The notes under the pieces were generated by a model. It ran no database searches, was not told where the DNA came from, and saw only the letters and a program-made list of their open reading frames with translations. Below, piece by piece: positions 22,243 to 26,819 of a stretch of DNA of 26,819 nucleotides. Each line of letters opens with the position of its first letter. Position 1 is the first letter of the stretch. The stretch is from positions 1-26,819 of IMG/VR virus record IMGVR_UViG_3300017769_000100; one strand, written 5' to 3'. This DNA is from a virus. A program made the position numbers and the translations under genes.

Positions 22243-25200
22243 ATGCCTAGATATTCAGTAGACGACAAGGTCTATAACATTCCAGAAGACAAGGAACAAG
22301 CTTTTCTTGCAAAATTTCCAAAAGCAAAACTATTAAGCCCTTTAAAACAATTAGAGGGAAACGAGGACGACGTGGAGACAGTAGATCCCAACGACACGTC
22401 GATGAATACGGGATCAGATGGGGAAGATACTTCTTCGGATTCACCAGAAGATGAAACTATATACAGAGGTGAAAATCTAGAAGAAGTCAACATTAGGCCT
22501 CAAATTATGACTCTTGAAGCTTTTGTCGAGTTAGCTTCAAATACAAAAGGTTATAAGGTTGAAAAAGATTTATCAGAAGGTTTGAATACCTATTACGCTG
22601 ACGATCCAAAAGCGGCAGAGTTAACTTTTGAAAACACAAACATGCTAGGCTTGGGCACAGACGGTATATTTGGTAAGAATCAAATAAAAATTAAGTCTGG
22701 CTATCTTTTAAGTGGATCTCAAAAAATATTTATACCCAAAAAGCCTTACAAACACCATACTGACGAAAACGGAAACATAACAGCTGGAGGTAGTAATAGA
22801 GAAGATTGGGTGAAAGCTTACGATGCTTACGTCAGAATGACTGAGTTGCATTTCGAGGGGGCAAACTCAGCTCCAGAAACGGCTGAAGAAAAAGAAAACT
22901 TAAGAAAAAGAAACGACGAGTATACTAAAGATATAGCTCTACACAACATAAACTTTCAATTAAAAAACGCTCTTGAGGTCGCTGAAACAGACGAAGAAAA
23001 ACAAAGACTACAAGATGAGTTGCTTTTTAACGAGCAAAATCCCGAAGAAGTTAAAAACAACATAGACTTAGAGGCTTTAAGAAAAAAAGACGTTTACGAA
23101 TTAAACAAGCAAAAGCTTGATGATTGGAACAACACCGTTGGGCAAGAGTTAGCTAATCAATATAGAGCAGAATACAATAGAGAAAACGATCCAAGAGAAG
23201 GTGGTAAAAACTTTGAAATAGAAAGAGATAACTATATAAACCAAAAATTAAACGAACAAAGAGCCGCGCAAAACCCCATAGAAACCGAGGTGATAAACAA
23301 CTATCAAAAAGCTATTGATGAGCTTCAAACTAACTCTGGGTTTAACATGGTTCAAAACCTAATGCAAGGTAAGATCGGTAGCACAACTCAAAGAGGCGAG
23401 CAAGAGTTTAACAATTTAGATTGGATTGGGGACAACAAGTTTGATATATTTAGAAACTTACCGTATAGAGATGTTAAAGCCCTAGCAAATGGTGATTTGG
23501 GTGAAAGTTGGCAAAGAAACTTTTTAGCTCAAGAGAAGCAAAAGTTGTTTAGCAAAAATATAGATGAACTAAACCAGCAAGGAGATCAGCTAGAGCTAGC
23601 GATTGATGATTTCGAGCAAGATAAAAAAGATTATGACGACTTAGTAGCTGACTACCAAGAAAGATCTACAGCGTTAAACGAAGAATACGGTAGTATAGGA
23701 TCTCAACTAGAAAGCGTACAAAAGTTGTTAGAAGGTGATGTTGAAGCGCTAAATGATTTTCAAAAAAGAATTGACAGTCAAACAGACGATTATATTAAAG
23801 GAGAACTACAAAAGCTATATGACAGTAGATTTAAAGAATATAACCAAAGATACAACGAGTACAAAGAGCTTAGAGAAAGCGCTCAGCCATATCTAGAAAG
23901 AGCAAGGCAGCTTGAAAACGAATATCTTGACTTAGAATTACAAAGACAGCAACTAGACGTTGAAGGCGGAGAGTTAGACTCTATGGCTTCTAAAATAAAA
24001 AACGCCGAAGAAAGAACATACGCTGAGTTTAGTTATGATAAAATGACTAAAGTTATAGGTAGTGATTTTAAGCTAGACGACGACTACTACGAATGGAAAA
24101 ATAAAAGAGTTACCGACGATACTGGTGTTTTTGGTAGCTCTAGAGACTTTACAAACACTTTGGTAACTGGCCTTATAAAAGGCGGGCTTGACCTTTATGT
24201 CGGCACAGTAATATCTGTAGGGGAGTGGATAGGCAGTAACATAAAAGGTATTGGTGGAAGTTTTTCTACTAGCGAGAACGTATACGACAATTACGATTGG
24301 CTAAACAACAAGTACGGAGGCTTAGTCGCCTCTTTAACTACATTTGTACCGGTTGCGGACGGAGCTAATTTAAGAAAAGAAGGTCAATTTCTTGGAGGTT
24401 ATAAGCATGCTATGAAAACTACAGCTAACATGCTACCGTTTACATTACAAATAATAGCTTCTGCTAGAAAAGGTGACGTTAATAAAATGGGTAAGCTATA
24501 TAGCACTTTAGCTAAAAAAGGTGTAGACGCAAAAAAGCTAACAGCGCTAAAAGGTTCGGAAACAGCTTGGAGACTAACAATACATGACAATGTTCAAGAA
24601 GGCAAGGCGCTAGGCTTAGATGATGAAAAAGCCCAGCAATATGGTTTTTACGCTTCTGTAGCTACATCTTTGAGTCAGTTGATAATGCCAGACTTTAAGC
24701 TAGTCGGTGGTTCAAGTAGGGTTTTATCAGGATTAAAAAGCTCATTTGGAACTAATTTAAAATCAGCTGTTAATAGAAAAGCTGGGCTAAACGCTGTTGG
24801 TCAATTTTGGTTAAACTACGCAAGAGAATACACGGAAGAACTTACCGAACTTACTTTTCAAAACATAAACAAACACTCTTTAGGTTTAGGCCACGGTAGT
24901 ATATTTGGTACTTTAGAAAACCATAGAGATATAGCCGAAAGCGTGCTTTTGCTAAACGGAACTTTACAAGGTACTAGCACGGCTATGGGTAGCGGAGATT
25001 ATCAAGCGTTTAGAAATCAACTTTTCGATGGGTTTAGACAAAGAGGCTTAGATGTTGTTCAAGACATAGAAAACGACATGCTACAAGTTGCAGAAAAAAT
25101 TGACATATATAGCGCGGATGGAAACGATAGTAAAGTAGAGTATTTTACCGATCTATACAATAAAATGAAAAAGGGTAGAGACTTTTCTTTACTAATAAAC

Positions 25201-26819
25201 AACGCTATAAACTTATCGCCTGAAAGCGTGACTGACGAGCAGTTAGATCTAGTTATACAGAAACAAGAGTTGCTAGCTAAGAAAAAAGAGTTAGATCCGG
25301 CTTTTGCAGGTATGTATGACGCAAACATTGAGGCTCTTGATGTTCAAATTAACAACTCTGGCGTAGCTCAAGTTACAGAAAAGATGTTTGATAGAACTAC
25401 AAAAAACGCCAAGCTTATGGGCGAAAAAATGGGTATTGTAGTTAAGGTTTTTGGCGATAAAAATACTGACCCTTCAGCTGAAATAGAAACTTATTTATCA
25501 GAAAACACTGACTTATCTAAAGACAAAATCAAGCAAGCGGCAAAAGAGCAAGGTGGCGCTTTTACCGACAACAATGGAAACGAAGTTTTTATAGTCAACA
25601 AGAGTAAAGCTATGACTTCGTCTGGGGCAAATGTTGCCGCGCACGAGCTTTTGCATAAGTTTATGGCTATGACAATGGCTGAAACTACAGAAGATGGTTT
25701 TATAATAACAGACCAAGACGGAAACCCTTTGCTTAACAAAGAAGCTGCATTAGCAATACAACAAGGTTTAGGCGCGGAAATAATGAAGTTAAATCCTAAA
25801 CGTATAGCTGACTCTACTTTTTCAAGAAGAGTTGAAGCTTACCAGTCAGACCCATCTAGCGTTCAAGCTGTAGAGCTGTTAACACTTTTTGGAGATGCGT
25901 TGGCGTCTGGGGATATTAAGTACGAAGAGAACGTATTTACTAAAATTGGAGACTTTGTTAGAAAAGCTACTCAAAAAATGGGTATGCCTATAACGTTTAG
26001 AACAGGAAAAGATGTATTTAACTTTTTAAGAGACTACAACGAAAGTATAGCTAAAGGTAAATTTACCGAAGCTCAAAAGAACATGTTTAGATTTGGAGCA
26101 GAGCTTAAAGGAGATATTAGCAAACTTGCGTCTGATCCTAGAATTAAAAAAGAAGTTTTAATAGAAAATCTTTTAGAGCAAGGAATATCTCAATATATTG
26201 TTGCTCCATCTGAAAGAACAAAAAACACAAAAGTTGGTAATTATCTTTCGTCTAGAGATTTAAACGACTTAAAAGACTTTGATAATTTTACTCAAAATCC
26301 TGACGGTACGCCTAAATACAGTACTCAAGAAGATTTTAAAATGTCAGAAGATTACTACAATGGCTATTCGTCTATAGTTGACTCTTCTGCTTTAGACGGC
26401 TTGATAATGGCTGGTATGACTGAAAAAGGTCTTAGAGGTGCGGCTATGGAAGACTTTGTAAGAAAAGTAAAAGAAGAGATAGGAGATAGATATTTAGGTA
26501 AAATAAATAAAAAAACAGGCGAAAGAGGTAGAGGTTTTGATATAGAAGCCACTAATGCTAGTTTGTTTGGCTGGATTACGGGTGTTGCTGGTGGTCAAGG
26601 TAAGTCTATTATATTTAGAGCCAAGGGCGATGTAATGAATCAATATAAAAAAGACAAAAGTGGTGGCACTGTGTCTTTAGATAAAAACATTGGTGACGGA
26701 ACTACTTTTGGCGATATGATCGTGGACCAAGGCAACAACATGATAGAATCGTTTGAGCAAGAAAATCTTAGTCACACTGAGGCTAGAGAGCAAGCTGTTA
26801 TACCCGGTGTTTTTGCTAG
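22243..26819 (+). CDS. giant polyvalent/ejection protein with zinc-metallopeptidase motif (3' end beyond window)
   Basis: The frame is open for 1525 codons from ATG 22243 and has no stop before the window ends. The start MPRYSVDDKVYNIPEDKEQAF is followed by an acidic Ser/Asp/Thr linker (about residues 40-75), charged helices and a long coiled coil (about 420-580), and a Gly-rich hydrophobic stretch at 640-667 that may insert into membranes. HELLH lies at residues 1134-1138. With E1211 in AVELLTLFGDAL as a possible third ligand, this fits a gluzincin-type metallopeptidase. A conserved-looking block at about 1366-1500 contains NASLFGWITGV and IIFRAKGDVMNQY. Such multi-domain proteins are known in podoviruses as internal proteins injected with DNA, sometimes called polyvalent proteins. 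Its last position in the virion cluster supports that role. The substrate of the peptidase is unknown. Confidence 0.75.
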   Translation, partial: MPRYSVDDKVYNIPEDKEQAFLAKFPKAKLLSPLKQLEGNEDDVETVDPNDTSMNTGSDGEDTSSDSPEDETIYRGENLEEVNIRPQIMTLEAFVELASNTKGYKVEKDLSEGLNTYYADDPKAAELTFENTNMLGLGTDGIFGKNQIKIKSGYLLSGSQKIFIPKKPYKHHTDENGNITAGGSNREDWVKAYDAYVRMTELHFEGANSAPETAEEKENLRKRNDEYTKDIALHNINFQLKNALEVAETDEEKQRLQDELLFNEQNPEEVKNNIDLEALRKKDVYELNKQKLDDWNNTVGQELANQYRAEYNRENDPREGGKNFEIERDNYINQKLNEQRAAQNPIETEVINNYQKAIDELQTNSGFNMVQNLMQGKIGSTTQRGEQEFNNLDWIGDNKFDIFRNLPYRDVKALANGDLGESWQRNFLAQEKQKLFSKNIDELNQQGDQLELAIDDFEQDKKDYDDLVADYQERSTALNEEYGSIGSQLESVQKLLEGDVEALNDFQKRIDSQTDDYIKGELQKLYDSRFKEYNQRYNEYKELRESAQPYLERARQLENEYLDLELQRQQLDVEGGELDSMASKIKNAEERTYAEFSYDKMTKVIGSDFKLDDDYYEWKNKRVTDDTGVFGSSRDFTNTLVTGLIKGGLDLYVGTVISVGEWIGSNIKGIGGSFSTSENVYDNYDWLNNKYGGLVASLTTFVPVADGANLRKEGQFLGGYKHAMKTTANMLPFTLQIIASARKGDVNKMGKLYSTLAKKGVDAKKLTALKGSETAWRLTIHDNVQEGKALGLDDEKAQQYGFYASVATSLSQLIMPDFKLVGGSSRVLSGLKSSFGTNLKSAVNRKAGLNAVGQFWLNYAREYTEELTELTFQNINKHSLGLGHGSIFGTLENHRDIAESVLLLNGTLQGTSTAMGSGDYQAFRNQLFDGFRQRGLDVVQDIENDMLQVAEKIDIYSADGNDSKVEYFTDLYNKMKKGRDFSLLINNAINLSPESVTDEQLDLVIQKQELLAKKKELDPAFAGMYDANIEALDVQINNSGVAQVTEKMFDRTTKNAKLMGEKMGIVVKVFGDKNTDPSAEIETYLSENTDLSKDKIKQAAKEQGGAFTDNNGNEVFIVNKSKAMTSSGANVAAHELLHKFMAMTMAETTEDGFIITDQDGNPLLNKEAALAIQQGLGAEIMKLNPKRIADSTFSRRVEAYQSDPSSVQAVELLTLFGDALASGDIKYEENVFTKIGDFVRKATQKMGMPITFRTGKDVFNFLRDYNESIAKGKFTEAQKNMFRFGAELKGDISKLASDPRIKKEVLIENLLEQGISQYIVAPSERTKNTKVGNYLSSRDLNDLKDFDNFTQNPDGTPKYSTQEDFKMSEDYYNGYSSIVDSSALDGLIMAGMTEKGLRGAAMEDFVRKVKEEIGDRYLGKINKKTGERGRGFDIEATNASLFGWITGVAGGQGKSIIFRAKGDVMNQYKKDKSGGTVSLDKNIGDGTTFGDMIVDQGNNMIESFEQENLSHTEAREQAVIPGVFA

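Follow-up and report, generated by a model that had tools for sequence, protein, structure and literature searches.

What is the giant protein encoded at the end of a marine virus fragment, and what would the putative metallopeptidase at its HELLH motif do? We addressed these questions with IMG/VR record IMGVR_UViG_3300017769_000100, a stretch of 26,819 bases (here, the window) from a marine bacterial virus. The giant gene begins with an ATG at position 22243 and remains open through 26817, giving the 1,525 residues without a stop that the initial annotation had reported. Because the record is a virus contig that ends inside the gene, the gene is incomplete in the window. The downstream sequence was supplied by a related IMG/VR contig (L002), whose complete counterpart (P0002, 3177 aa) is 94% identical over the shared part. 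At full length, the window gene is expected to have ~3180 codons and to encode roughly 3,200 residues. A more distant contig (L003) carries a giant of 3605 aa (P0003). The features of the window gene are as follows.

22243..26817 (+): 5' part of the giant gene, 1525 codons
22243..22332 (+): N-terminal tag of ~30 residues (MPRYSVDDKVYNIPEDKEQAFLAKFPKAKL), which opens ~25 giants and is absent from the remaining proteins on these contigs
22855..24162 (+): variable E/K/Q-rich region, aa 205-640, with unrelated sequence in its place in L003
24184..25242 (+): helix-rich module, aa 648-1000, common to 17 other giants and opening with a mildly hydrophobic Gly-rich stretch
25411..26061 (+): zincin metallopeptidase domain, aa 1057-1273, predicted from alignments, invariance, a structural model, and Foldseek
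25642..25656 (+): HELLH, aa 1134-1138, with H1134 and H1138 as predicted zinc ligands and E1135 as predicted general base; invariant in 51/51 and in model helix 107-120
25873..25875 (+): E1211, predicted third zinc ligand; invariant in 51/51 and in model helix 181-198
26389..26817 (+): start of a sigma-70-like module, aa 1383-1525, from profile comparisons; in L002 the module reaches ~aa 1560
26692..26748 (+): core of a sigma-finger-like motif, GDGTTFGDM..., aa 1484-1502, preceded by VSLDKNI, from hhalign

The zincin domain

HELLH occurs once in the window giant, and the composition of the chain predicts only ~0.008 HExxH motifs. Among 51 non-redundant sequences, H1134, E1135, H1138, Y1200, and E1211 were identical in all 51. 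A separate alignment of 14 diverse zincins left N1119, H1134, E1135, H1138, and E1211 invariant; its members had been chosen for HExxH, while N1119 and E1211 played no part in the choice. The window giant thus has the HExxH plus glutamate third ligand that define gluzincins, at the residues originally proposed. If the domain works as a zincin, it would bind zinc through H1134, H1138, and E1211, with E1135 acting as the general base.

Conservation of the motif extended across a wide sample. A terminase alignment yielded 80 contigs, and a zincin match was obtained in 10 of 36 records (34 from the terminase scan plus the records of L002 and L003). Giants from 16 large contigs contained HExxH in 14 cases; the two others were L124 and L121, the latter being cut by its contig end. 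In a wider IMG/VR scan, 301 confirmed stretches encoded a relative of the zincin, from which 79 loci were kept, all of them with HExxH. Since 26 of these loci were found solely by a downstream motif outside HExxH, [TS][GA][KER]DV[FY]NF, and every one of the 26 has HExxH, its conservation is not merely a bias of the search. The zincin domain was also under the strongest purifying selection among the regions tested, with a dN/dS between the window and L002 of 0.058 in aa 1031-1280 versus 0.17 to 0.24 in the regions before it. Five of the 51 relatives matched Peptidase_M78 (IrrE-like; best E = 4.9e-7). The window's own chain had no match among Pfam peptidase and LPD models, and nothing significant was returned when the zincin was compared with PDB sequences by profile or sequence searches.

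The predicted structure fits a zincin as well. Zincins of phage polyvalent proteins are described as having an HExxH helix, a later helix with glutamate, and a three-stranded sheet (PMC5512222). An AlphaFold2 model from the 51-sequence alignment (pLDDT 83.8, pTM 0.82) has this layout, with predicted strands at 41-46, 80-84, and 90-95, a helix at 107-120 bearing HELLH, and a helix at 181-198 bearing E1211 (model numbering). Both histidines lie in the same model helix; neither histidines set apart nor homologues of the zincin domain lacking HExxH were obtained. With Foldseek, the best hit among viral models had E = 2e-5 and a probability of 1.00, and an annotated large polyvalent protein was matched at a probability of 0.96. 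Against solved structures, the best match was anthrax lethal factor, itself a zincin (probability 0.82, weak E = 0.056). The corresponding domain of phage N4 has the same fold link to lethal factor (Iyer et al. 2017, PMC5512222), and the likeness reflects a common fold, nothing more.

Modules before and after the zincin

The chain upstream of the zincin is far less stable than the chain that follows. P0002 and P0003 are weakly alike over their first ~150 residues and share everything from ~residue 1110 onward, with no significant BLASTP similarity between ~150 and ~1110. The N-terminal part has thus been swapped, already among close relatives, and the part from the zincin onward has been kept. 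The opening tag is common to ~25 giants while the sequence after it varies; it is possibly a packaging or docking signal. Residues 205-640 of the window giant have a high content of E, K, Q, and L, a composition that fits the coiled coils noted in the initial annotation. The hydrophobic Gly-rich stretch reported at 640-667 exists, although its hydrophobicity is mild: the highest Kyte-Doolittle mean over 19 residues is 1.30, under the usual level for a membrane helix, and we judge such a helix unlikely there. We also compared the module at 648-1000 with LPD14 and with gp101 of Cellulophaga phage phi38:1 and found no link to either.

Downstream of the zincin, we identified a candidate sigma-70-like module. 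The window sequence directly after the zincin is RGFDIEATNASLFGWITG, followed further on by VSLDKNIGDGTTFGDMIVD. Using a reference set of 84 sigma factors (four from E. coli and 80 loci from GTDB genomes), a 19-sequence profile of the module matched sigma region 2 in hhalign at 42% probability with a score of 28.8. Control scores were no higher than 18.5 in 100 column shuffles, reached 10.6 with the profile reversed, and were no higher than 21.6 when other modules were run against this target. Sigma regions 3.2 to 4 were matched by the SLD-containing stretch with 78% probability (E = 1.8e-5, score 38.4, versus at most 18.35 in 60 shuffles). Because several profile variants were tried, these scores carry some selection. 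A narrower profile (A10) gave no match to region 2, and without the SLD/finger motif the match to regions 3.2 to 4 fell to 0.7%. One relative matched Pfam Sigma70_r2 at E = 1.3e-4 and 22.1 bits, slightly short of the 24 bits set as the curated cut-off. Structural modeling of the module gave a poor result (pLDDT 69), and a fold search with this model gave no clear fold; profile and sequence searches against PDB sequences returned nothing significant. The first IMG/VR scans with the segment found the two nearest contigs only, until more distant relatives were added. The start of the module lies 51 to 255 residues past the zincin in 18 of the 18 giants that have both.

Judged by profile alignment, the module resembles sigma-70 factors in a candidate region 2 and, correctly ordered relative to it, a motif like the sigma finger (region 3.2). 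It differs from them in its sub-cut-off Pfam score and in that the helix-turn-helix of region 4 is not recognizable. On this evidence, we lean slightly toward a true relationship to sigma factors. Such a module could put the RNA polymerase of the host to work on early phage genes.

In complete relatives, the sigma-like module is followed by a HAD-phosphatase-like domain and then by a very conserved C-terminal region. Among 99 giants, matches were found to the zincin profile in 89 (most of which had been chosen by it), to the C-terminal blocks C1 and C2 in 80 and 77, to the HAD-like domain in 61, and to the sigma-like module in 19. The rest of the chain had first been described as matching no nameable enzyme, with a virion RNA polymerase suggested as a domain that could lie past the window. 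The first statement needs amending for the sigma-like and HAD-like modules. The second finds no support in the complete relatives of 3177 and 3605 aa, which matched no RNA polymerase family in Pfam or PHROG and lack a DxDxD motif. With the catalytic domain not found by any of these routes, we rejected an N4-type virion RNA polymerase.

Several other observations concern the distal chain. The HAD-like domain of P0002 (aa 2210-2390) bears FDFDETL and LTARP motifs and has a weak PHROG match to polynucleotide kinase. In P0003, a P-loop kinase resembling zeta toxin or polynucleotide kinase (aa 2437-2724; Pfam AAA_33, E = 2.7e-10) interrupts the HAD-like domain, with the DxDxT motif on one side and LTAR on the other, as it does in L112, L115, and L116. 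This pairing of kinase and HAD phosphatase is reminiscent of the polynucleotide kinase-phosphatase of T4 type and may point to end repair of RNA or DNA. When 16 giants were scanned with Pfam, the zeta-toxin/AAA_33 kinase was detected in three and LPD14 in four, including that of L003. At aa 3114-3140, P0002 has C-terminal Cys/His-rich repeats with a weak match to DUF5763.

Gene neighborhood and cultured relatives

The window terminase matched 87 phage records at 32 to 63% identity, nearly all of them flavobacterial phages, including the Flavobacterium elemo phages, Cellulophaga phages such as phi38:1 and phi19:3, and Tenacibaculum phage Gundel. The terminase was also present on 46 of 50 zincin contigs. 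The window phage falls within a large set of phages, most of them uncultured, with relatives among the flavobacterial podoviruses, and its host is probably a flavobacterium or another member of the Bacteroidota. The order of terminase, portal, structural genes, and giant is kept in Elemovirus, the Cellulophaga phages, and MW202828; no giant was seen at the corresponding place in Gundel. As in Elemovirus and the Cellulophaga phages, the giant gene is the last of the virion cluster. Elsewhere in the window, a GroES-like co-chaperonin gene at 1861-2469 (PHROG 13932, E = 1.2e-18) lies upstream of the terminase and also occurs in cultured relatives. The product of 646-1353 has a weak match to Laminin_G_3, a lectin-like fold (E = 2.2e-4), and is possibly a receptor-binding protein.

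The counterpart giants of cultured phages vary in length and content. In the elemo phages, gp18 (3694 aa, annotated as structural) shares its gene position with the window giant and has a homologous zincin (HEIFH), which the window zincin profile matched at an hhalign probability of 94.75%; a BLASTP match between P0005 and P0003 (E = 4e-5) also linked the zincin to a cultured phage. Unlike the window giant, gp18 has no detectable sigma-like module, and its C-terminal region is not detectably related, carrying DUF3293 instead. The giants of phi38:1 (gp101, 1691 aa, annotated as structural) and phi19:3 (gp129, 1871 aa) occupy the same position but are about half as long and lack HExxH, so some phages of this kind do without the zincin. 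The giant of MW202828, a phage from a spring (L010; P0006, 3859 aa), has two separate HEFGH motifs, at aa 1615 and 2500, neither clearly related by profile to the window zincin. Searching cultured phages by tblastn gave no match for the window protein and one weak hit for the rest of a complete relative. We looked for a C-terminus in common with the cultured giants and did not find one.

Possible roles of the zincin and comparison with known systems

The best placement for the window giant is among the phage polyvalent proteins, as initially proposed. It is multidomain and very large, its gene adjoins virion genes, its predicted zincin has the layout described for the class, and conservation, Foldseek matches, and a homologous cultured-phage protein annotated as structural point the same way. 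Its class, its location in the virion cluster, and counterparts annotated as structural suggest that the giant is probably packaged and would enter the host together with the DNA. Zincins have been proposed to cut polyvalent chains into working units (Iyer et al., PMC5512222). In the window giant, the zincin would most likely cleave its own chain into functional pieces, either as the giant is packaged or once it has entered the cell, and the strong constraint on the domain together with its fixed place beside another module favors such an internal role. Against this reading stands the N4 virion RNA polymerase, which carries a zincin of this kind and is packaged uncut (PMC5512222). Overall, we think it fairly probable that this is a packaged polyvalent protein that enters with the DNA and is processed by its own zincin. 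In this subfamily, the piece beside the zincin might then turn host RNA polymerase to the transcription of early phage genes. The full scenario, in which the zincin releases the sigma-like module after entry and thereby steers host RNA polymerase to early phage promoters, as a borrowed-polymerase counterpart of N4, strikes us as rather unlikely taken as a whole.

Other roles for the zincin can be weighed against self-processing. The main alternative has the zincin acting as an effector on the host, cleaving a target such as a defense or regulatory protein right after entry. IrrE/M78-like peptidases cut repressors in known cases, and it is to this family that five of the 51 relatives are matched. 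Host proteins are the targets of zincins in related classes, and action after injection is discussed by Iyer et al. (2017, PMC5512222). The fixed place of the zincin 51 to 255 residues before the sigma-like module and the strict constraint on it fit an internal job at least equally well, although neither is decisive, and we regard a host effector as possible, if on balance doubtful.

Assembly proteases are normally small separate proteins, and this zincin is embedded in a chain of more than 3000 residues with sigma-like and HAD-like modules. A protease that matures other head or tail proteins and has no use in the host therefore seems quite improbable, despite the placement of the gene in the virion cluster and the precedent of zincin-like peptidases proposed for assembly proteolysis in some jumbo phages (PMC7824862). 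As for a chance HELLH, the chain is indeed very long and helix-rich, but the expected count, the 51/51 invariance, and the predicted zincin fold already contradict this reading, and we give it hardly any credence.

Self-processing remains our preferred reading. The zincin and the sigma-like piece after it suggest that the virus may deliver a self-cutting tool for transcription takeover into the cell. A large, mostly uncultured phage group (301 IMG/VR stretches) is now tied to the polyvalent-protein class, and elemo gp18 provides its zincin with a named homologue from culture that is open to tests of self-cleavage; a limited literature search found no data on packaging or cleavage in the elemo phages. 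Should the sigma-like module prove real, a transcription factor may travel in the phage particle, which would offer another route to the start of phage transcription besides host promoters and virion RNA polymerase.

Compared with the phage-type polyvalent proteins of Iyer et al. (2017, PMC5512222), the window giant is similarly large, multidomain, placed in the virion cluster, and equipped with a zincin. LPD domains are known from that class, and LPD14 occurs in relatives of the window giant, although the window's own chain matches no LPD model. The sigma-like module after the zincin sets the window giant apart, as sigma is not mentioned in that account, and in the literature searched we found no description of a fixed tandem of zincin and sigma-like module. 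A giant with a zincin is a known class; the fixed tandem is the new part. The N4 virion RNA polymerase (Schitoviridae) is a chain of ~3,500 residues delivered from the virion (PMC12633501), with a zincin domain in the chain, and is packaged uncut (PMC5512222). The window giant resembles it in size, in having a zincin within the chain, and probably in delivery from the virion. N4 differs in bringing its own RNA polymerase domain; none was found in relatives of the window giant, where the sigma-like module would instead borrow the enzyme of the host.
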